DNA of 64,000 nt from Bosea sp. BIWAKO-01. Its GTDB lineage: Bacteria; Pseudomonadota; Alphaproteobacteria; Rhizobiales; Beijerinckiaceae. Positions 7,016 through 35,526 of the stretch are shown piece after piece. Below the pieces are notes generated by a model. It made no database searches. It was not told the DNA's origin and saw only the letters and a list, made by a program, of their open reading frames with translations. The number at the start of each line of letters is the position of its first letter. Position 1 is the first letter of the stretch. The position numbers were made by a program, and so were the translations under genes. The stretch is taken from NCBI RefSeq assembly GCF_001748145.1, contig NZ_BCQA01000001.1, forward strand, positions 186,001-250,000, in the 5' to 3' direction.

Positions 7016-7733
7016 GATCCTCGCTCTATCGATTGCCGTTTGCGCATGGGGATGGCGCAGCGGTCCTGGCCCAGCCGCCAGCGTTCAACCGGCAGCCTCC
7101 CCTCGCCTGACCGCCCTTGATCTGCTCATGCTCCAGGAAGACGGTTCTCGTGCGGATCGGCTCAAGCAATCGCTGGCTATCGCGCGCGCCGAGATGCGCA
7201 GTCCCGATGGGCAAGAAGATCTCGCGATTCCGCAATACATCGGACTTGACCGGAGGGCGGCTCCAGTCACGATGGATATTATCCCCGATCGATCGCATGG
7301 TCAGAAGATCCACCGCATCTGTCCTCGTGCAGAATAGCGACCGGTTACAGACTGCGCGGCGATTTGTCACGACACTTCAATAACTTAGAAATACTCTAAT
7401 TTATAATTAGTAGATTTATAAACTGTGCGCCTGGCGAGATGACCAGGGTCAGACCTGACGGGATGGACAGACCTGGCGATTGCGCTGAACGAGATTGCCA
7501 CTGTTGGTCTCAGCCGGCCCGGGATGACCGCCGCGGAGGCGCCAGAATGCCCTCCCGCTTGTCGGCGACCACAACCGCAGGAGCAGAACACCAAACTATT
7601 CTATCTAAGGTTTAGCAAGACAGGTTTGTCCACCAGACTGGATCGAGATTGTTCTCACTTTGAGAGGATTTACAAAGAGCGTTGACTACGCAACCATCCG
7701 GTCAGGCTTGGGGGTAGAGTACAGAGGTCAGCC
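7016..7733. other. intergenic region between divergent genes
   Basis: No ORF here looks genuine. The block 7380-7440 is clearly AT-rich compared with its surroundings and could hold the promoter of the siderophore importer, though it is about 370 bases upstream of that gene. I found no clear Fur-box-like palindrome by eye. A ribosome-binding-like AGAGGTCA precedes the response regulator start at 7734. Confidence 0.4.
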
Positions 7734-8405
7734 ATGCCGGACCTTTCGGTTGCGATCGTCGATGATCACCCGATGCTGATGGAGGGGATTGCCGCGCTGC
7801 TGAAGCGCTGGGGCGGTTTCATGCTCGCCGCGACGGGGACTGTCGCAGATCACATCGTGCCGATCGCCAGAACGCATCACCCTGATGAAATGATCGTCGA
7901 TCTCAGCATGGCGGGGGATGTCTTCCAGGCGATTGCGGACGCGTTGAAGATCGCTCCTGAGACGAAGATCGTGGTGTTCACGGCCTCGGCCAACACGGAA
8001 GACGCGATCAGGGCCCTGGATGCCGGGGCCAAGGGCTATGTTCTGAAAGGCAGTCCCGGAGAAGACCTCTTCCAGGCTCTTCAGGCGGCACAGCGAGGCG
8101 ACGTCTATGTCACCCCCTCCTTCGCGACCAAGCTAATCTGTGCGTTGAAAGAAAAGACCCTAGAACGACAGAAGGCGATCAGCAACAGGCTCAGTGTCCG
8201 GGAGCAGCAGATCGTCAACCTGCTGCTGCTCGGCAAGATGAACAACGAGATCGCGCGCGAGCTGTCGCTCAGCGCCAAGACCGTCAAGGGCTACATGACC
8301 AACCTGATGGCCAAGCTGAACGCGCGCAATCGCCTGGAGGTGGTGCTTGCGGCGCAAAAGCTGGCTGCGGGAGCGAACACCCCTGCCATGATCAGGCGCC
8401 CGTGA
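7734..8405 (+). CDS. NarL/FixJ-type response regulator (orphan)
   Basis: 223 residues. The receiver domain has the acidic pair D10-D11, phospho-acceptor D56 in MIVDLSM, the switch Thr in VVFTAS and the conserved Lys in GYVLKGSP. A C-terminal LuxR-type HTH follows (LSVREQQIVNLLLLGKMNNEIARELSLSAKTVKGYMTNLMAKL). It should bind DNA when phosphorylated. No histidine kinase gene is adjacent, so the partner is elsewhere. Receiver and DNA-binding residues look intact. The regulated genes are unknown; the secreted-protein gene at 8503 on the same strand is about 100 bases away and could be one. Confidence 0.92.
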   Translation: MPDLSVAIVDDHPMLMEGIAALLKRWGGFMLAATGTVADHIVPIARTHHPDEMIVDLSMAGDVFQAIADALKIAPETKIVVFTASANTEDAIRALDAGAKGYVLKGSPGEDLFQALQAAQRGDVYVTPSFATKLICALKEKTLERQKAISNRLSVREQQIVNLLLLGKMNNEIARELSLSAKTVKGYMTNLMAKLNARNRLEVVLAAQKLAAGANTPAMIRRP

Positions 8406-8502
8406 ACGACGACCGGCCCCGCCGGATCCGTTGAGAGGGCCGCAATCGCTGGGGCCCGGACGCTAGCCGAGCCCAAGGCAGCCAGAGCCGGGGAGGCTGC
8501 GC

Positions 8503-9108
8503 ATGACGGTCGCGGACACTCTTACGCCCGGCACTCCGCTCCAACTGGATTGCCGGATGCTCCCGCAGCATCGGGGCATCGGCATCCCCATACGCTGCGG
8601 CATCGCGGCGGCTTGCCTGTGCTGCATCCTTGCCGCCTTCGCCTGCAATCCCGCCCGCGCTGCCGAGTCCGACTTTCTCGAGCGTTTTCGCGGCGACTGG
8701 TCCGGCTCCGGTAAGGTCCAGCGCGACGGCGGCAGCCAGCCGCGGCACGTGACCTGTTCGATCATGGGACGCCCCACCGACAATCGGATCAGCGCACAAG
8801 GCAGCTGCCGCGCCTATCTGATCTTCGTGCGCCCGGTCGCGATCGATGTCACCTATGATCCGCGCTCCGGCACCTATCGCGGCACCTATACCGGCGCCCG
8901 GATCGGCCCCGCCCGGCTCAGCGGCACGCGCAGCGGCGACGCCCTGAACTTTCGCATCGAATGGCCGCGCCCAGTCAATGGCGACACGCAGGCCGCGATG
9001 GTCATCCAGAATGACGGCCGCGGCATCCTGCGGATTACCATCTTGGATAACCTCACGCCCGGCGGCCCGATCCTGCAGACCTCCGAGATCATCCTGGTGC
9101 GTCAATAG
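8503..9108 (+). CDS. secreted protein, unknown function
   Basis: 201 residues. The ATG at 8503 follows a strong GGGGAGG ribosome binding site. The hydrophobic signal core (IAAACLCCILAAFACNPARA) begins only about 30 residues in, so the leader is long; the ATG at 8557 would give a normal-length signal. The mature part (FLERFRGDWSGSGKV, CSIMGRPTDNRISAQGSC, GTYRGTYTGARIGPARLSG, NGDTQAAMVIQND) resembles small alphaproteobacterial periplasmic beta-barrel or lipocalin-like proteins. Two Cys flank a loop and may form a disulfide. I do not know a function. Confidence 0.7.
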   Translation: MTVADTLTPGTPLQLDCRMLPQHRGIGIPIRCGIAAACLCCILAAFACNPARAAESDFLERFRGDWSGSGKVQRDGGSQPRHVTCSIMGRPTDNRISAQGSCRAYLIFVRPVAIDVTYDPRSGTYRGTYTGARIGPARLSGTRSGDALNFRIEWPRPVNGDTQAAMVIQNDGRGILRITILDNLTPGGPILQTSEIILVRQ

Positions 9109-27661: not shown

Positions 27662-28207
27662 CTACGCCTTCACCAAGCCGGGTGTCCTGAGGACGAGATC
27701 GCGCACCGCCTCGAAATAGCGGACATAGCCGGTGCAGCGGCAGATATGCCGGTCGAGCGCCTCGCTGATCACCTCCTCCAGCGCCTCGCGCCGGACCGGG
27801 TTACGCTTCAGCTGGTCGAGCAGCACGGTGGCACCGGTGACGAAGCCGGGGGTGCAGTAGCCGCACTGGAAGGAAAAATGCTCGATGAAGGCCTGCTGGA
27901 CCGGCGAGAGCTGCGTGATCTTGCCAGTGGCGTCGCGCCTGGCGTGCCCCTCCACCGTCCTCACCTTGCGCCCGGCGAACCAGTGGGCGCCGGTGATGCA
28001 GGTGCGCATCTCCTCGAGCGAGCCGTCGCCCTTCTCGACGACCACGGTGCAGGCATGGCAGATGCCCTGGCCGCAGCCCATGCGCGAGCCGGTCAGGTTG
28101 AGGTACTCGTAGAGGAAATCCTGCATCATCATCGTGTCGGGCACATCGATGGGACCGACGGCCTCGTCGTTGATGGTCAGGGAGAGCGTGCGGGTCGCGA
28201 TGGTCAT
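27662..28207 (-). CDS. 2Fe-2S subunit of a xanthine-dehydrogenase-family enzyme
   Basis: 181 residues. Two iron-sulfur clusters are bound by the plant-ferredoxin motif GCGQGICHACTVVV and the C-terminal CGYCTPGF...CRCTGY motif. It starts with ATG overlapping the stop of the molybdopterin subunit gene by four bases (ATGA) and ends 5 bases before the cytochrome gene. It has no signal peptide, so it must be exported with the Tat-targeted large subunit as a hitchhiker, as known for related enzymes. Confidence 0.92.
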   Translation of the reverse strand: MTIATRTLSLTINDEAVGPIDVPDTMMMQDFLYEYLNLTGSRMGCGQGICHACTVVVEKGDGSLEEMRTCITGAHWFAGRKVRTVEGHARRDATGKITQLSPVQQAFIEHFSFQCGYCTPGFVTGATVLLDQLKRNPVRREALEEVISEALDRHICRCTGYVRYFEAVRDLVLRTPGLVKA

Positions 28208-31026
28208 GCCAGCGCCTCTCGGATCTTCTCGGGCGTGATCGGCAGGCTGTAGAAGCGCTTGCCGATGGCGTGGGCGACCGCGTTCACGATCGCCGGCACG
28301 ACCGCGATCATCACCACCTCGGCCATGCCCTTGGGTGGATCGGTCTCCGACAGCGGCGGCAGGATTTCGGCCGTCTGCGACCAGACCGCGACATCCCTGG
28401 AGGTCGGCAGCTCGTAGCGGTTCCAGTTCCAGGTGCCGTCGCCGGGCCCGTCCTCGTATAGCGGCAGATACTCCTTCAGGGCGTGGCCGATGCCCATCGC
28501 GAGCCCGCCCTGGATCTGGCCGGAGACCAGTTCCGGCACGATCTGGGTGCCGCATTCGAGGATGGAGTGATGCGACAGCAGGCGGACCTCGCCGCTACCG
28601 GTGTCGACGGTGATCTCGGCCAGCGTCGCCATCGGCGCGTAATAGGTGACACCGGCATTGTTGCGCTGGGCCGGCGGGTAGAAGACCGAGGCCCGCTCGA
28701 CGAAATGCCAGCCTGCCTCCGTCATCAGGGCCTTGCGCTCGGCTGGTGCTCCGTCGCCGTACTGGACCGCCAGCGCATCGATGGCGAAGCGGCGGCGTCC
28801 GGCGCCCGGCACTTCGAACTCCGCCTCGGCCCATTGCCAGCGGTTGAAGCTGTGCACGGTGACGCCGGTGACGAGGCCGAGCCGGTGCGCCTCGGCCGCG
28901 ACCTCGGCAAAGGACAAAGGCTGCATGGCGGCCGCGTTGATCATGCCGCGCAGGATGCGCAGATCCTCGCGGCGCACGGCCTCCGGCGCCAACTGGCCGC
29001 CGCCGATGCCGCGCGACCAGAGCGAGCGCGCGGCGGGCCAGATCGCGAGGTCGACAAGCGCGCGGGCCGCCTCGCGCGTCGCATGGCCGAGATAGTAGAC
29101 GCTGTTGGAGGCGCTCATCGGCGAGGTAAAACTCGGCGTCCAGCGCGGGTTCGCCATGCGCCGGTCTTCCTCCTCCTGGGAGAGCGTATAGGGCTCGTCG
29201 GAGGTCTCGAGCGGCATCTGCGGCCAGCGCACCTTGCCGAATTCGGTCTCGTCGGGTTGCCGGCCGAGGATGCCGGCGGCCATCACCGCCTGCGAGGTCG
29301 TGGCGCCCGTGCCGATCTCATGGGCGACATGCGACAGGCTGAGCCGGCCGCTCGCATCGAATGCGAGCGCGCAGAGCGCCGCTTCGGCGCCGGTGCCGTA
29401 ATCCTTGTGCACATGACCGTAGCCGACGCCGTATTTCTTGCCGGGATTGGCGGCCTCAAAAGCGGCCTTGCGCTCTCGTCGCCCGGCCCAGAGCGGGTGC
29501 TTTTCCGCCCGCGCCAGGATCTCGTCATGACGCAGCGCGCCTGAGGGAATCGCGCCCTGCGAGTTCTTCATTCCCGATTTCAGCGCGTTGCGCCGCCGGA
29601 ACTCCATGGCATCGAGGCCCAGCGCCTCGGCAGCCTCGTCGACCATCATCTCGGTCGCCGCCATGGTCTGCAAGGTGCCGTAGCCGCGCATCGAGCCGGC
29701 ATCGACGGCGCGCGACGACAGGATCGCCGCGGAAAAATCGCTCTTCGGCAGGTAATAGATCGACTGCGCCGCCGTCGCACCGACCGTGCCGACCGAGACC
29801 GAGAAATTCTCGCGCCCGCCGCCATCATTGCGATAGCGCCCGGTCATCGCCCGGAACTTGCCGGTCTTGCGGTCGATGACCATGACCTTGTCCATCTGGA
29901 AGGCATGGCGCTTCAGCGCGGTCTGGAACTGCTCGTAACGGTCATTGGCGAGCCTGACCGGCCGCCCCTCTGCGTAAAGTCCGGCGAGCACGCAGTAGAA
30001 CGGGAAGATCGCGTGGTCCTTGGTGCCGTAGCCGACGGTGTAGCCGATCTTGAGATCGATGCTCTTCAGCGGGAATGTCGACTTCGACACCATATGGGCC
30101 GCCATCTCGGCGACCTCGTGCGGGGATTGCGTGGCGATCAGGGCATGCAGGATGCCGGTCGCGCGCTCGTACCAGACATTGCCATTATCGGCCTCCATGG
30201 CCGAGGCATCGGCCGACTGGCTGGTAAAGGAGCGCCGCAGCACCAGCACGTCGTCACCGGCAGTGGCGATCTCGCGCTCGATCTCGGCCGCGGCCGCCAT
30301 GCCGCGCGCCATGGCGTCACCGTCTCCGGCGGCGGGCCATTGCGGCTCCTCGCCCTTGAAGCCGGTGCGGATCGTCGTGTCCTTGAGCGCGGAATAGCGG
30401 TCTTCGGCCTCAGGAGTGCCGCCGTCGATTCGGACATAGCGCGCCGCACCATAAGGGCCGGGCGTGGTCGACGGGCCCTCCGTGCCGTAGCGCACGACCT
30501 TATCGTTGAAGCGCAGCTTGCGCTTGGCCGCGTCATAGCGGGCAAAATCGTGATAGATCAGCAGCGCGACCGGCTGGCCGAGCAGGCGCGCGGTCTGGCC
30601 TTTGGGAACGAAGAAGACATCGCCATAGAAGCCGGGCGCCGGGATCGCGACGCCGTCGGCGACGAGGTCCTCGTGCAGCACCAGCCGATCGGGCTTCAGG
30701 TCCTCGCCGAGCAGGCTGAGATCGACGCCGTCGAAGACGCGGTCGACCCGCGTCGCATGGAGCATGAAGGCGTGCGCCTGCTCCTTCGGCCAGCCTGCGA
30801 GGTCGCGGGCGCGGTAATCGCGCGTAAAAGTCTTGCCGCCGGTGACCTTGGCGATGGCGTCGAGCCGGTACTTCGGCTTGCCGCCGGCCTCGAGCCAATC
30901 GGCTCCGGGATGCGGCGGCGTCTCGATCAGCTCCGCCCGGGTGGCCGAGGGCAGCAGCGAAATCCTGATGGCGACGCCGGCCGCTGCGGCCTGGAGGAAG
31001 GTTCTGCGGGATAGACCTGTCTTCAC
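28204..31026 (-). CDS. xanthine-dehydrogenase-family molybdopterin-binding subunit, Tat-exported
   Basis: About 940 residues. I chose the GTG at 31026 because it puts a twin-arginine leader (KTGLSRRTFLQAAAAGVAI) right at the N-terminus; a GTG at 31083 would add 19 residues. Molybdopterin-contact segments include GSMRGYGTLQTMAATE, HEIGTGATTSQAV and the C-terminal QIQGGLAMGIGHALKEYLP and KGMAEVVMIAVVPAIVNAVAHA. With the 2Fe-2S and tri-heme subunits it forms a periplasmic hydroxylase or aldehyde dehydrogenase. The substrate class (aldehyde or N-heterocycle such as isoquinoline/nicotinate) is not determined; the tri-heme partner resembles acetic-acid-bacterial aldehyde dehydrogenase. Confidence 0.9.
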   Translation of the reverse strand: MKTGLSRRTFLQAAAAGVAIRISLLPSATRAELIETPPHPGADWLEAGGKPKYRLDAIAKVTGGKTFTRDYRARDLAGWPKEQAHAFMLHATRVDRVFDGVDLSLLGEDLKPDRLVLHEDLVADGVAIPAPGFYGDVFFVPKGQTARLLGQPVALLIYHDFARYDAAKRKLRFNDKVVRYGTEGPSTTPGPYGAARYVRIDGGTPEAEDRYSALKDTTIRTGFKGEEPQWPAAGDGDAMARGMAAAAEIEREIATAGDDVLVLRRSFTSQSADASAMEADNGNVWYERATGILHALIATQSPHEVAEMAAHMVSKSTFPLKSIDLKIGYTVGYGTKDHAIFPFYCVLAGLYAEGRPVRLANDRYEQFQTALKRHAFQMDKVMVIDRKTGKFRAMTGRYRNDGGGRENFSVSVGTVGATAAQSIYYLPKSDFSAAILSSRAVDAGSMRGYGTLQTMAATEMMVDEAAEALGLDAMEFRRRNALKSGMKNSQGAIPSGALRHDEILARAEKHPLWAGRRERKAAFEAANPGKKYGVGYGHVHKDYGTGAEAALCALAFDASGRLSLSHVAHEIGTGATTSQAVMAAGILGRQPDETEFGKVRWPQMPLETSDEPYTLSQEEEDRRMANPRWTPSFTSPMSASNSVYYLGHATREAARALVDLAIWPAARSLWSRGIGGGQLAPEAVRREDLRILRGMINAAAMQPLSFAEVAAEAHRLGLVTGVTVHSFNRWQWAEAEFEVPGAGRRRFAIDALAVQYGDGAPAERKALMTEAGWHFVERASVFYPPAQRNNAGVTYYAPMATLAEITVDTGSGEVRLLSHHSILECGTQIVPELVSGQIQGGLAMGIGHALKEYLPLYEDGPGDGTWNWNRYELPTSRDVAVWSQTAEILPPLSETDPPKGMAEVVMIAVVPAIVNAVAHAIGKRFYSLPITPEKIREALA

Positions 31027-31083
31027 GTCGACACCCCGCTCGCTGACGAGCCGACTCTGCTCTCCCGCCGATATTATGAGCAC

Positions 31084-31550
31084 AGGGCGGGCGCGTATAT
31101 CGATATTCGAATTGGTCTGGTTTCAATGATGGGGACACTGCGCTCTCGCGCGAGTGGCGAGGTAACCGCATTCGTCGGCGGAGACGTTGGCCAGCGCCGA
31201 CGAATGCGGGGCGAACGATCTCGCAGCCCCTTGCAAGCTCCGGCGGATGGAACCAGCGCCTTGCACCCGCCCAAGACCGCCCTTACGGCTCGGAGAATAG
31301 CAGCGCGGCCCCTTCGGGACCGCCAACGCTGGCTGCAGCTTCGCGCCACAACCAGACATTAAGGCACAGCCCGCAAGCGGACATTCCGCACTGCAGGGCT
31401 GATTAGCAGCTTCCGCCGCGCTAACGAATCCCAAGTTCCGGCCGTCTGTAGCTGCGTCCGGATGCCTGACCAATAGGCATTTCAACTTCTACGCGCTACA
31501 TTCGATTCGCTTACCTAGAAGCGATGCAATGCGGGCGGGGGATTTGCACG
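31084..31550. other. intergenic left boundary of the accessory trio
   Basis: No supported ORF. Base composition falls towards its right end, where the lower-GC genes begin. I see no integrase, tRNA end or terminal repeat that would define how the trio arrived. Confidence 0.4.
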
Positions 31551-31973
31551 ATGGTCGTTTGTGGCGTCGAGCTTCGCAGTAGCGAAGCTCGCCTTGTACT
31601 TGTGACCGTTAAAGACGGCGAACTCGTCCATGTTCGGAGTAAGACTAAGGTTCTGAAGCTAGGTGATGACACGTCCAACGATTCCATCGCGACTTTCCTT
31701 CAAGCGGTAAAAACGTTCGCACATGAGAACGGGGTCGAGGCGTTTGCAATCAAAGCACGCGCCAAGACTGGGCAAATGGCCGGGGGCGGCATAACCTTTA
31801 AGATGGAAGCGATTATTCAGCTGTCCGGGGTCGATGTGACGTTGGTCAACCCTGTCGCTCTATCGAGCTTCTCGAAAAAGAACATTGCCGGAATTCCCGA
31901 CACGATAAATGGCGTTGACCAAAACGCCTATCTTTCGGGTGTCTTCGACCTAAATCGCAAGAAGCTCGTGTAA
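31551..31973 (+). CDS. DUF3010 family protein, RNase-H-like in appearance
   Basis: 140 residues from the ATG at 31551, preceded by a purine-rich GGGCGGGGG. It opens VVCGVELRSSEARLVLVTV, followed by a mid-part IKARAKTGQMAGGGITFKMEAIIQLSGVDVTLVNPVAL and a tail QNAYLSGVFDL. This matches what I know of DUF3010, whose short first strand with acidic residue, central G-rich helix and late helix recall the RuvC/RNase H fold; that fold call is inference. Its stop TAATG overlaps the kinase start. Base composition is visibly poorer in GC than the flanking genes, which suggests acquisition. First gene of the trio. Confidence 0.75.
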   Translation: MVVCGVELRSSEARLVLVTVKDGELVHVRSKTKVLKLGDDTSNDSIATFLQAVKTFAHENGVEAFAIKARAKTGQMAGGGITFKMEAIIQLSGVDVTLVNPVALSSFSKKNIAGIPDTINGVDQNAYLSGVFDLNRKKLV

Positions 31974-33061
31974 TGGCATTCGATCTAAACGTTCTAAAAG
32001 GCGACGTTCTCAAAAAAACTCAAGAACTTTCTAAAGACATCGAGTTCCGCTCGATAATTGAAAAGGGCGCGAACGGATATGTGCTTTTCGGCCACAACAA
32101 AGTTCTTAAGCGTGATGTGGTCGTCAAGTTTTATTATTGGGGGGGGGGGGGGGGGGGGGCAGGCGATCATGCAGAACCAGAACTTCTAGCTCGGCTGGAA
32201 TCTGATCACATCTTGAAAGTTTATCACGCTGAAAGTTTGAACAAGGATGATGCCTACTTCATGACGCCGTATTGCGCTTCTGGCGATTTGCTCGACGCCA
32301 TTGAGAAGCGCAGGTTCGGGAATGTTGAGGCGATCGACATTGCGGGGCAGATCGCCGCCGGTACGAGCTTTTTGCACGCGAACGGTTATCTCCATCGCGA
32401 TCTGAAGCCGGAAAACATCTTCTGCATATCAGATTCGAAGTTCGTCATCGGCGATTTCGGGTCAGTGGTGCCTCAGCATGCCGACGGGTCAGCCAATTCT
32501 CAAACAAGGCATTCGCTCATCTACCGAACGCCAGAAGAGATAACCGAGAAGAAATATTACAGGCAAGGCGACGTCTATCAGTTGGGAATCGTCGTATACC
32601 AACTTCTCGGCGGCGTCCTGTCCTACAATGAGCGGGATTGGCTCACTAAAAAAGAACAGGCTACCTATGATAAGCTAAGCGGAAATGATCCGCAGCTTTT
32701 CGCGACGGAAGCCATTGAGAAGCGCATCGTTAGAGGACGTGTCCTTGACCTCGATAGCCTTCCTCCTTGGGTTTGCAAACCTTTGCGAACGATGATCCGG
32801 AAATGCTGCTCAACCAACATCGCTGCGAGATACGCGCTCGTGTCGGACCTTAGTTCCGCACTGAATAACTTGCGCGCAAGAGTTCCTGACTGGCGAGTGG
32901 AAGAGCACCCCATCTTGCGGCGGGGCCGGAGGCAGTTCCGCATTGTGCCCGTCAAGGGCGCTTTAGCGATAGAAAAGAAAGCGGGCGAAAGCTGGCGGAG
33001 AGAGCGAGCCCTTAATCCAGCGCACCTAGCCGAGGCCGTAGTCATGGCTGAGGCGATCTGA
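31973..33061 (+). CDS. Ser/Thr protein kinase with an in-frame poly-G tract (phase-variable candidate)
   Basis: 362 residues. All catalytic elements are intact: Gly loop KGANGYV at 31-37, Lys52 in VVVKF, the helix-C Glu at 68 or 70, HRDLKPEN with Asp143 and Asn148, DFG at 161-163, TPE at 186-188 and the D200 VYQLG helix. No transmembrane segment; the C-terminal 120 residues are basic and unrecognised. Between Lys52 and helix C the DNA is 21 consecutive G, read as Gly57-62. Gain or loss of one or two G would end translation early. It overlaps the DUF3010 stop and is followed 8 bases later by the YaaC-like gene. Low GC, like the first gene. Confidence 0.9.
   Translation: MAFDLNVLKGDVLKKTQELSKDIEFRSIIEKGANGYVLFGHNKVLKRDVVVKFYYWGGGGGGAGDHAEPELLARLESDHILKVYHAESLNKDDAYFMTPYCASGDLLDAIEKRRFGNVEAIDIAGQIAAGTSFLHANGYLHRDLKPENIFCISDSKFVIGDFGSVVPQHADGSANSQTRHSLIYRTPEEITEKKYYRQGDVYQLGIVVYQLLGGVLSYNERDWLTKKEQATYDKLSGNDPQLFATEAIEKRIVRGRVLDLDSLPPWVCKPLRTMIRKCCSTNIAARYALVSDLSSALNNLRARVPDWRVEEHPILRRGRRQFRIVPVKGALAIEKKAGESWRRERALNPAHLAEAVVMAEAI
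32139..32159 (+). repeat. homopolymeric tract of 21 G inside the kinase gene
   Basis: Twenty-one uninterrupted G, from the end of a Trp codon (TGG) through six GGG codons to the first base of GCA. In this assembly the length keeps the kinase open. Tracts this long are known slipped-strand hot spots; no other homopolymer in the window comes near this length. Confidence 0.95.
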
Positions 33062-33069
33062 TCCAAGCA

Positions 33070-34221
33070 TTGGGGCCTTTCTTGACTGACTGGTACAATC
33101 TCAAATTTCTAGAGAGCGCGACCAATCTCTCGAATGTCCTGAAGCGATCCTTCGACCACGAGCTTTCCGTGATCGTCGCCCGTGATGTAACGGTAGCTTT
33201 GCAGCAAGGGCGGCTGTTCTTTGAGCAGGCGCAGGAGTCGCCCATCCAAATCCGCCCACTGCTCGTCTACTACGGCGTCTTGAGCTTCGCCCGCGCCGTG
33301 ACCATGGCGGTGAAGAACATCCCCCTAGCCGAGATCGTCCCCAGCCACGGCATCAGCGATGCGGGCGCGCCGACGAGCGTCGAAGGCCTGAGCCTGACCG
33401 TGAAGAAGAATGGGACATTTCAGCAGTTCAACGATGTCATCGCACCGCTGTCACGGTTCTATTATTCCGAGCACAGCATGCCTCAATCGGTCGTGCGCCC
33501 GTTCGATCTGGCTGCACCGCTCGAAAAGAAGACGATCACGATCCTCGACATCCTCTCGCGGCTCTCCGAGCCTCATGGCGCTATCGATGAGAGCCGGATC
33601 GCCGAGCCAAACTATCTGCATGTCGATGTCCGGCCTTACCAACTCAATAGCTGGCATCTGCGCCTTGACGAGCGCCCCCTGATCGAGAACCGCGAGAACC
33701 TAGTCGCGCTCGTTTCCTCCCTCCGGGATCGCTATCCCTTCTTGAAGCACTGGCGGCTTCAAAGCGCCCAACTCGCCTATAATCGGACGCTTCTCATGTT
33801 CGATAACCGATCGGAGAACATGGGCGACGACCTTTCCGAAATGGAACTCATCCGCCTCGACGAGACCACATACAAAAGTGCGGTCGATCGCACGGGCGGA
33901 GGAGAGAACTATGTTCGACCGGAAGACATCCTGCCGCCGCTGACGGGCGGCTATGGCCAGTACACCCTTCGGACGGCGGTTCGGCCCCTGCATGGCGTCG
34001 CTTTGAACGAATATCCGCTCCTGTTCTTGGGGAGCTTCCTGCTCAGTTCCCTCGTGCGGTATCGGCCGGAGCTTTGGCAGCACGCTCTTTCGCGATCGAA
34101 CACGACCGACTTTCCGGCAGATGATCGTTCGCTTTCGGCGATCGAACGATTTGTGGGGACGGTTCTCGCCTCTTTCCCGCCTTTTGTCGTCAGCATCTTG
34201 GATTATCGCGGCAACCACTGA
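33070..34221 (+). CDS. YaaC-like protein
   Basis: 383 residues from a TTG start (another TTG at 33082). The segment ARDVTVALQQGRLFFEQAQ, then IRPLLVYYGVLSFARAVTMAV, then SHGIS and a LTVKKNGTFQQF stretch follow the order seen in YaaC proteins of Firmicutes (YaaC_like family), which are also of unknown function. The C-terminal LNEYPLLFLGSFLLSSLVRYRP and SAIERFVGTVLASFPPFVVSIL are helical. There is no signal peptide or clear membrane anchor. GC content rises here to the genome's normal level, unlike the two upstream genes. Third gene of the coupled trio; a hairpin follows its stop. Confidence 0.7.
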   Translation: MGPFLTDWYNLKFLESATNLSNVLKRSFDHELSVIVARDVTVALQQGRLFFEQAQESPIQIRPLLVYYGVLSFARAVTMAVKNIPLAEIVPSHGISDAGAPTSVEGLSLTVKKNGTFQQFNDVIAPLSRFYYSEHSMPQSVVRPFDLAAPLEKKTITILDILSRLSEPHGAIDESRIAEPNYLHVDVRPYQLNSWHLRLDERPLIENRENLVALVSSLRDRYPFLKHWRLQSAQLAYNRTLLMFDNRSENMGDDLSEMELIRLDETTYKSAVDRTGGGENYVRPEDILPPLTGGYGQYTLRTAVRPLHGVALNEYPLLFLGSFLLSSLVRYRPELWQHALSRSNTTDFPADDRSLSAIERFVGTVLASFPPFVVSILDYRGNH

Positions 34222-34239
34222 GCGAAAAGGTTCGCTCCC

Positions 34240-34284
34240 CTCCAAACGGCAAGCATCGATCATGTTGCGATCTACCGTTTGGAG
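34240..34284. other. inverted repeat after the YaaC-like gene
   Basis: Perfect 10-bp arms CTCCAAACGG (34240-34249) and CCGTTTGGAG (34275-34284) with a 25-base loop. It begins 19 bases after the stop codon. There is no T-run, so it may stabilise the 3' end of the trio's mRNA or mark an old insertion boundary rather than terminate by itself. Confidence 0.5.
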
Positions 34285-34476
34285 TCATACCGCTTGAGGA
34301 GTGGCAATCGTCTGGAAAGAGCCGACCTGCCCCTGCTCAGTCAACGAGTGCCAATTTGAACTGCCCAAGAGCGGACGTTCGGACGGCGGCTAAGGGCCAA
34401 CTCCGGTCACCAGACACCGCTCTTCAACAGTCTCAGATAGGTCGAACCCTCCTCATTGCCCTTCCCATGCCGCCCC

Positions 34477-34785
34477 CTAACTCAGCACCGCCGGCACCGG
34501 ATCGAACGCCCCCACCACCGCCTTGATCTCCAGCATCCTCGCCATCGCCGGCGGCTTCTTCAGCCTGCCGTTGGCATCGTCGCCCACGGTTCCGCAGACC
34601 GGCAGGATGCTGATCTCGTCGTCCATGGCGATCGCGGTGAGGCCGAAGCTGTAATCGGGGAAGTGCGCCTTGAGATGAGCGAGCAGGCGTGGCTTGGCTG
34701 CGCCGAATTCCGCCTCCCGGCCGAGCGGCGGGAAGATGACGAACTGCGTGGCGTGTTCGAGCCCGTCGCTCCAATGGCGGTTCAT
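34477..34785 (-). CDS. small hypothetical protein
   Basis: 102 residues from the ATG at 34785, whose AGGAGG ribosome binding site lies within the last codons of the upstream zinc-ribbon-like ORF; the two overlap by four bases (ATGA). Sequence features: ATQFVIFPPLGREAEFGAAKPRLLAHLKAHFPDYSFGLTAIAMDDEISILPVCG. No signal or membrane segment. It looks like a compact alpha/beta protein of unknown family. Coupled translation with a zinc-ribbon protein suggests the two act together. Confidence 0.6.
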   Translation of the reverse strand: MNRHWSDGLEHATQFVIFPPLGREAEFGAAKPRLLAHLKAHFPDYSFGLTAIAMDDEISILPVCGTVGDDANGRLKKPPAMARMLEIKAVVGAFDPVPAVLS

Positions 34786-35201
34786 GCGCTCCTCCTGACG
34801 GTCGGCACGAGGGTGATGGTCGTGCCGAGCCCGCCGCGCTCGCGGCAGGAGCAGGAGAACCGGTGCAGGCCCATCAGGCTGCGCGTGCCCTGCCCGATCA
34901 CCTCCCGGATCGCGCCCGGCCCCATCCGTTTCGGGCGCCCGTAATCCTCGCATGGGATGTCCGGCAACGCCCCGATCTCCAGCAGCGAAGGCGACGGGGG
35001 TCTGATCAATCGCAGGGCTGCTGCTGGATATGCTGGAGGACGTGCCGGGGCATTGCCGGGGGATGTGCTGCAGGTATGCCAATCACAATCACAATCACCT
35101 AAGACAACAGTATCTAACGATCCTGTTGTCATGCGCGCCAAGGCGCTGCCGAACCTGTCCCGATTTTGGATGGCCTGACGGCGGTTCGCTCCGATGGTCA
35201 T
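34782..35201 (-). pseudogene. degenerate copy of the zinc-ribbon gene fused to unrelated sequence
   Basis: 139 residues. The C-terminal 60 residues clearly repeat the neighbour at 35198, but the zinc ligands are damaged: CEDYG replaces CEDCG and CSC replaces CSVC. The N-terminal 75 residues have no counterpart and are low-complexity. Its start overlaps the stop of the intact copy (ATGA) and uses the same embedded AGGAGG. I read it as a decayed tandem duplicate; the reading frame has survived, so it may still be translated and couple expression of the downstream gene. Confidence 0.6.
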
Positions 35202-35443
35202 GCGCTCCTCCTGAAGGTCGGCACGAGGTTGATGTTCTTGCCGAGCCCGCCGCGCTCACGGCAGACCGAGCAGGAGAGCCGGTTGTGCAGGCCCATCAGG
35301 GTGCGCGTCCCCTGCCCGATCACCTCCTGGATTGCGCCCGGCCACATCCGCTTCGTGCGCCCGCAATCCTCGCATTGGATGTCCAGCGACGCGACGTAAG
35401 ACAGTTCGGGCCGCTCACCACTTCCCGAATAGGCCAGGCTCAT
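35198..35443 (-). CDS. small zinc-ribbon-like protein
   Basis: 81 residues from the ATG at 35443, preceded by AAGGGA; an ATG at 35476 would add 11 residues. Two Cys pairs (CEDCGRTKRMW and CSVCRERGG) separated by about 28 residues suggest a zinc ribbon. The last codons, AGG AGG AGC GCA TGA, both encode Arg-Arg-Ser-Ala and provide the ribosome binding site for the next ORF. A tandem, damaged copy lies directly downstream. No family recognised. Confidence 0.65.
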   Translation of the reverse strand: MSLAYSGSGERPELSYVASLDIQCEDCGRTKRMWPGAIQEVIGQGTRTLMGLHNRLSCSVCRERGGLGKNINLVPTFRRSA

Positions 35444-35526
35444 CACAAATCCCTTCAGTTCCTGTTTCGTTCTCATTTAAGCCAGAGGGTGGCGGACAAG
35501 TCGAGTCGGTTCGACGGCTTGACCCT

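Follow-up and report, generated by a model that had tools for sequence, protein, structure and literature searches.

RESULTS

A coupled DUF3010-kinase gene pair in Bosea

We analyzed a stretch of 64,000 nucleotides from Bosea sp. BIWAKO-01 (contig NZ_BCQA01000001.1, positions 186,001 to 250,000; hereafter the window), which lies on the larger of the two contigs of this 7.3-Mb genome. Here, a gene for a DUF3010 protein is directly followed by a gene for a Hanks-type Ser/Thr kinase, and we find that this pair recurs elsewhere and looks like an undescribed anti-phage system. An initial annotation had grouped the two genes with a third, encoding a YaaC-like protein. All three are indeed intact and co-directional, and each has a Pfam match (Table 1). 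As that annotation stated, the kinase start codon overlaps the stop codon of DUF3010 by one base within TAATG (31971-31975), and an 8-base gap separates the kinase stop (33061) from the TTG start of the YaaC gene (33070). The first two genes are also GC-poor, as described (0.52 and 0.52, with 0.58 for YaaC). The GC content at third codon positions (GC3) is 0.61 for DUF3010, 0.59 for the kinase, and 0.73 for YaaC, against roughly 0.85-0.93 for native open reading frames (ORFs) of the window chosen by eye. The three genes are marked as foreign because their GC3 lies below that of native ORFs, and the proposed acquisition by transfer is supported.

Table 1. Features of the locus, in window coordinates.
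Feature	Position	Strand	Basis
DUF3010 protein, 140 aa, RuvC-like fold (predicted)	31551..31973	+	PF11215 E 2.8e-32; AF2 model
Hanks-type Ser/Thr kinase, 362 aa, with complete catalytic motifs	31973..33061	+	PF00069 E 2.2e-30
YaaC-like protein, 383 aa, TTG start, occasional third gene	33070..34221	+	PF14175 E 2.4e-26
21-G run within kinase gene	32139..32159	+	sole G/C run >=14 in 7.3-Mb genome
Conserved C-terminal part of kinase: last lobe helix and beta-sheet/helix tail	32828..33058	+	kept in 10/10 aligned kinases
Variable cargo slot, ~3.0 kb, containing the pair and YaaC	31361..34361		comparison with congener G1486
Presumed promoter region of the pair, common to L005	31361..31550	+	homology to L005
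Inverted repeat 3' of YaaC, 10-base arms, 25-base loop	34240..34284		read from sequence
Left slot anchor: native 959-aa ORF	28204..31083	-	GC3 0.87; flank kept among congeners

The pair recurs and diverges in step

The pair is present in the window and in nine further loci; because the proteins of two Rhizobium megaplasmids (L119 and L120) are identical, these represent nine distinct pairs. At each of the 10 loci, DUF3010 and the kinase overlap or are separated by at most 9 bases. A 1-base overlap is found in six (window, L005, L171, L119, L120, and L132, where the junction reads TTTAATGAG), and a 4-base overlap in L173 and L130; the gap is 2 bases in L014 and 9 bases in L172. The closest pair by kinase is that of L005, a contig from a Hyphomicrobiales metagenome-assembled genome that may be chimaeric (DUF3010 94% and kinase 91% identity). 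Its homology (31338-33145) spans from ~210 bases upstream of the pair to the first part of YaaC, with 82-93% identity per 60-base bin from 31371 in the upstream region. The pair on viral contig L171 is also close (93% and 86%), with upstream homology beginning only at 31492. More distant pairs lie on viral contigs L172 and L173, the Rhizobium megaplasmids, G1045, G078, and Lichenifustis.

Distances between the partner proteins correlate over the nine loci (r = 0.98; 0 of 20,000 permutations as high), partly because of shared tree structure and three near-identical rows. Between close copies, silent codon differences outnumber replacing ones in both genes, for example in DUF3010 (60 versus 10) and the kinase (132 versus 47) of the window and L171; these are raw codon counts rather than dN/dS, and because of this excess, both genes look maintained. 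In a tree of 41 DUF3010 rows, of which 28 were picked at random from the stand-alone loci, the kinase-linked rows cluster (3 changes versus a shuffled mean of 8.2) without forming one clade. A relic of the pair occurs on Cupriavidus necator pHG1, in which a kinase of 31% identity has an open frame and the DUF3010-like frame directly upstream contains an in-frame stop. In the annotation of that plasmid (L230), the DUF3010-like frame (8300-9010) is unannotated and the kinase appears only as a protein kinase family protein.

How often the two genes meet depends on which is used as query. Among the best 80 of 281 relatives in the genome-contig search for DUF3010, the kinase adjoined it in two loci (L005 and Lichenifustis), both alphaproteobacterial. 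DUF3010 was found in 40 of 398 phylum genomes (own included), without this kinase within 1.5 kb in any of the 30 loci fetched; one of the ten matches outside this check is the window and another is a weak match. Weak kinase matches 8 kb away in L029 and L040 were not counted. The class sample has DUF3010 in 4 of 385 genomes, one weakly; Bosea itself and G1045 have the pair, and G1010 has DUF3010 without this kinase in 19.9 kb. The order sample contains it in 2 of 397, namely Bosea itself and a weak match inside an 842-aa frame. DUF3010 genes without this kinase were also seen on the Roseobacter plasmid pROLI81 (within 30 kb) and on viral contig L174 (within 16 kb), and 50,697 phage records yielded no DUF3010.

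When the kinase was the query, DUF3010 lay directly upstream in all three matching genomes of the family sample (3 of 397 at 1e-40, own included) and upstream in all four plasmid records found at 1e-25, two from Rhizobium and two from Cupriavidus H16, the latter being one strain with the broken DUF3010 copy. Among 55 viral kinase matches, DUF3010 stands beside the two best, the only ones inspected; the other 53 are partial and 25-38% identical. Homologues that mostly stand alone, which the initial annotation would have held against a system, are thus the rule for DUF3010 outside Alphaproteobacteria, but not for the kinase. The earlier idea of a kinase-centered unit is supported.

The same does not hold for the trio, which we reject as a unit, as YaaC is present in 1 of 10 pair loci. 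We found no YaaC match by tblastn at E 0.01 across 18 loci, including the other nine pair loci, and a search of 72,556 plasmid records at 1e-5 was likewise negative. Among 327 class genomes, only Bosea itself matched at 1e-10, and a viral scan, which finds close relatives only, returned three pattern matches and no true relative. Comparison of the YaaC profile with solved structures gave chance-level matches only. The third ORF of L005 is a TauD-like chimaera rather than YaaC. Nevertheless, the 100 bases past the kinase stop align between the window and L005 (score 24; best of 300 shuffles, 11), with identity fading at ~33145; since L005 retains this vestige of the downstream start, YaaC or its start predates the window-L005 split. 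L171 shows no such vestige (score 7, against 14 for the best shuffle). What recurs is the DUF3010-kinase pair, and YaaC is probably cargo that follows it by chance in the window.

The pair occupies a slot that holds defense systems in congeners

In congener G1486, 95% identity to the window extends to 31360, and similarity (76% over 125 bases) returns at 34362, where the G1486 contig ends. The match to G301 breaks off at 31142 and picks up again at 34464. Between these flanks, G1486 has ~10.6 kb with SIR2 (2.7e-118), HerA (2e-203), a QueC-like gene, and PDC-S64, and G301 has ~11.4 kb with a type I methylase (4.5e-183), a specificity subunit, the Septu genes PtuA (6.8e-192) and PtuB (1.8e-92), and a PLD-type gene. 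The 3.0-kb slot of the window holds just DUF3010, the kinase, and YaaC. We read the slot as a probable exchange site for defense systems. Among 60 congeners searched, the left flank is 85-95% identical in 12 and 75% in two more, and at least 93% only in G1486 and G301. Four others (left flank 88-90%) have no right-flank homology in the 4.7-6.7 kb beyond and, in their whole genomes, short scraps of it at most; by eye, their left-flank neighbors are transporter operons or regulators. Because these four lack the right flank beside the left, the slot is shown only in the nearest relatives of the window.

Some other pairs also sit in mobile or defense surroundings. The L005 pair lies beside the two halves of RT-Protease XI (5.2e-66 and 8.8e-75) and an Mrr-type gene (Pfam 1.5e-4). 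In L172, which has a P2-like prophage layout, the pair falls between the head scaffold and major head genes and the terminase and portal genes; this is not the portal-side hotspot described for E. coli P2 (PMC9122126). Terminase and primase genes are near the pair on the L173 contig, G1045 has a tyrosine integrase on one side of it and a tRNA-Gly on the other, and IetA/IetS lie downstream of the kinase in the pHG1 relic. Altogether, a mobile or defense context was found in 6 of 11 loci (window slot, L005, L172, L173, G1045, and the pHG1 relic). It was not found for the two Rhizobium copies; G078 and Lichenifustis have only a tRNA-Ser neighbor upstream of the pair (at 3.6 and 0.6 kb, respectively), and L171 only its IMG/VR label. 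Congener slot cargo and the retron XI and IetAS neighbors support the suggested link to defense loci for the pair.

Several neighboring features deserve a record of their own. The type XI retron RT-protease of L005 is split over two ORFs (7586-9007). Two low-GC genes after the portal gene of L172 (12410-13309 and 14956-16017) are SIR2-like by eye, with no PADLOC match at 1e-8. Downstream of the G078 pair, a 1337-aa protein (L130, 12755-16768) has a P-loop-like motif by eye and no Pfam or PADLOC match at 0.001. The G1486 slot (L168, 1425-12050) also includes a PfkB/deoxyribosyltransferase-like ORF, which together with the QueC-like gene may form a further undescribed system. In the G301 slot (L169, 1730-12869), PtuA/PtuB directly follow the methylase and specificity genes, with no HsdR among the five ORFs tested.

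At the window locus itself, the 959-aa ORF anchoring the left side is, by eye, a candidate molybdopterin-type oxidoreductase, and the right flank (34477-35476) carries tandem related small ORFs that are repeated in G301 too. The hairpin annotated after the last gene exists as an inverted repeat (arms CTCCAAACGG/CCGTTTGGAG at 34240-34249/34275-34284); its loop, however, measures 25 bases, no T run comes after it, and the repeat is absent from the terminator scan. That scan returned 7 sites versus 3.6 expected (sd 2.5), all within genes, and promoter-like sites numbered 1 versus 1.6 expected. Rfam at gathering scores gave no match between 30500 and 36000, a tRNA scan of the window found none, and no convincing direct repeats flank the cargo.

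An intact kinase and a predicted RuvC-like partner that mostly lacks the strand-4 acid

The kinase is intact, as first annotated. The motifs VVVK, HRDLKPEN, DFG, and PE are all kept, and the catalytic residues K52, H141-D143, K145, N148, and D161-G163 are invariant across 10 aligned kinases, which places the protein among Hanks-type kinases. Its profile matched thousands of kinase chains among solved structures. The C-terminal tail is modeled by AlphaFold2 (AF2) as a small beta-sheet and a helix (pLDDT 77), and this model had no match at E<=0.001 in the PDB or among the viral folds of BFVD.

PF11215 is the sole Pfam match of the DUF3010 protein and covers the whole domain (residues 1-130; 112.4 bits versus a gathering cut-off of 25). 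A PDB search with its profile retrieved no solved structure. The AF2 model, built from 30 alignment rows (pLDDT 86, pTM 0.84), has RuvC structures as its ten best Foldseek matches in the PDB (7w8d, E 2.1e-6; 1hjr, TMq 0.76), with sequence identities of ~8-20%. It has 47 PDB matches at E<=0.001, and the lower ranks include actin-like kinases/phosphatases and ribosomal proteins. Model and matches support the RNase H/RuvC-like fold anticipated by the initial annotation. This assignment had been published previously, DUF3010 having been placed in the RNase H-like superfamily near Holliday-junction resolvases, as family D.19 (PMC3985635).

The catalytic acids are another matter. We mapped acid positions to RuvC residues through the sequence motif rather than through coordinates. 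Among nine kinase-linked DUF3010 proteins, position 7 (the strand-1 acid) is acidic in seven, position 69 (the strand-4 acid, a Glu in RuvC) in one, and E86 is present in all; two of the nine also lack the strand-1 acid, and no C-terminal acid is conserved among the nine rows. The RuvC-type set of strand 1, strand 4, and C-terminal helix acids is thus incomplete. In 108 other DUF3010 proteins, mostly gammaproteobacterial or from phylum-sample genomes, position 7 is acidic in 108 and position 69 is Glu in 66; aligned with these, six kinase-linked rows show 4 of 6 and 0 of 6, respectively. The proposal of a nuclease under kinase control is therefore weakened: The strand-4 acid is missing in eight of nine proteins and the strand-1 acid in two of nine. 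From these alignments, classical two-metal nuclease activity appears unlikely for kinase-linked DUF3010. Because eight of nine lack the strand-4 acid, a sensor or regulatory partner seems the more likely role.

The kinase gene also contains 21 consecutive Gs, in frame, which read as Gly codons after the VVVK lysine and before the next Glu. Compared with its closest relatives, the window kinase has five extra Gly codons at this site, where L005 reads TTGGGGAGCC and L171 reads TTGGGGGTCGG. All nine aligned relatives have fewer residues in this place: six lack 5, one lacks 4, and two lack 3. There are no other G/C runs of at least 14 in the 7.3-Mb genome and none of at least 12 elsewhere in 2.7 Mb of examined loci. 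The run may originally have comprised about 6 G, and a change of 15 would therefore preserve the frame. Either the genome carries a genuine hypermutable tract here, like those of phase-variable genes, or the assembly is wrong at this point; a genuine tract would make this an instance of kinase immunity under phase variation.

DISCUSSION

We propose, with about an even chance of being right, that DUF3010 and the kinase together form a small, mobile module of the abortive-infection type against phages, with YaaC as incidental cargo. DUF3010 would act as a non-cleaving, RuvC-like sensor that binds a structure made by the phage, possibly DNA that is branched or undergoing recombination, or a phage protein that works on such DNA. 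The conserved tail of the kinase may keep the two proteins together. Upon infection, DUF3010 would activate the kinase or cease inhibiting it, and the kinase could then phosphorylate host or phage proteins and so block infection, probably through arrest of the cell; Stk2 has been reported to act in this way. A bolder form of this idea, to which we attach a fairly low probability, is that the pair is a new class of immune sensor, in which a catalytically retired Holliday-junction-resolvase fold reports branched phage DNA to an attached Hanks kinase, and that in this strain a 21-G contingency tract lets the population turn the system on and off by slippage.

Several observations weigh against a defense module. 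The pair is rare, being confined to Bosea itself in the order sample (plus the weak match) and to 3 of 397 family genomes, and because most loci were found through DUF3010, constant pairing of the kinase cannot be demonstrated from them. Part of the correlation between partner distances has the trivial sources given above. The kinase does resemble defense kinases, but its PADLOC matches (mad6, 6.5e-36, the best; PD-T4-6, 2.3e-25; Stk2, 3.9e-10; the first two over the kinase domain only) are weak evidence because any Hanks kinase scores against PADLOC kinase models. The Rhizobium megaplasmid copies lie, by eye, among sugar-metabolism-like genes without mobile or defense signs. L171 is viral by its IMG/VR label only, with none of three neighbors tested giving a phage function, and the Mrr-type gene of L005 has no PADLOC match. 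The sensor role, the docking through the tail, and the target of the kinase are conjectural.

Mobile elements also carry cargo that has no part in defense, and the strongest competitor, though still an unlikely one, is that the pair serves as a phage or host regulatory moron or a stress-signaling pair carried for another benefit. The few Rhizobium and Lichenifustis neighbors tested gave no defense-type Pfam family, which fits this explanation. Against it stand a slot shared with SIR2-HerA and Septu in congeners and the retron XI and IetAS neighbors in relatives.

Somewhat less probable is a toxin-antitoxin system, in which the kinase would be toxic alone and DUF3010, an inhibitor rather than a receptor, would be its antitoxin, so that loss of DUF3010 upon infection frees the kinase. 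The small gene comes first and overlaps the larger one, the contexts are mobile, and a HipA-like kinase with a partner (DS-6) is hypothesized to act in this way (PMC13092281). However, a free toxic kinase should not be tolerated, and on pHG1 the kinase frame is open although its DUF3010 has an in-frame stop; that kinase is only 31% identical, which tempers the argument. Nor does DUF3010 match an antitoxin family in Pfam or PADLOC.

We consider it improbable that the kinase phosphorylates DUF3010 to turn on neighboring defense or payload genes, here YaaC. Such an arrangement has a precedent upstream of immune operons in CapK-CapS (PMC13373217), and the third genes do vary, with YaaC in the window and the TauD-like chimaera in L005. 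However, 8 of 10 loci have no co-directional ORF (>=70 aa) starting within 100 bases after the kinase, and the CapK GHKL and CapS STAS domains are unlike the kinase and DUF3010, the latter matching only PF11215 in Pfam. In the model first proposed, DUF3010 is an active RNase H-like nuclease that the kinase switches, and YaaC is a third component. This model agrees with the predicted fold, with a strand-1 acid in seven of the nine kinase-linked proteins, and with the presence of E86 in all nine, but we judge it equally doubtful given an acid at position 69 in 1 of 9 versus Glu in 66 of 108 others, no conserved C-terminal acid, and YaaC in 1 of 10 loci.

Comparison with known systems

The anti-phage module that we favor is not covered by PADLOC 2.0.0, in which DUF3010 and YaaC matched no families at E up to 1. 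We found no description of a DUF3010-kinase system among the literature matches listed, a search that left out preprints and most subscription papers. MADS Mad6, which occurs with other Mad genes, is the best PADLOC match, covering only 43-324 of 659 profile positions, and beside the window pair, where we looked, no other Mad-like gene is apparent by eye.

Gammaproteobacterial DUF3010 proteins (D.19) share the Pfam family and fold, but are stand-alone genes with varied neighbors and retain more of the acidic residues. The RuvC resolvase shares the predicted fold (TMq up to 0.76), whereas its strand-4 Glu is not conserved in kinase-linked DUF3010. CapK-CapS and VapKSC likewise combine a kinase with a partner in or beside immune loci, CapK-CapS being a kinase-substrate pair that is activated by DNA damage and lies upstream of various immune operons (PMC13373217). 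CapK is a GHKL anti-sigma-type kinase and CapS a STAS-domain DNA-binding repressor, folds unlike those of the DUF3010-kinase pair.

A further comparison is with Stk2, which we take to be the same as PD-T4-6 and a single stand-alone kinase gene. Both are Hanks kinases in defense contexts; the window kinase differs in being paired with DUF3010 and in having its own C-terminal tail. No stand-alone gene of this kinase was encountered, DUF3010 being directly upstream in all 10 loci, most of them found through DUF3010. Stk2 is reported to phosphorylate proteins and thereby halt infection, according to a review (PMC12926258). Few phage-defense systems based on kinases are known, and little is understood of what those kinases detect. 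A minimal two-gene pair with a RuvC-like partner offers a testable receptor in a small, assayable module, and an anti-phage role, if true, would give DUF3010 a first function.

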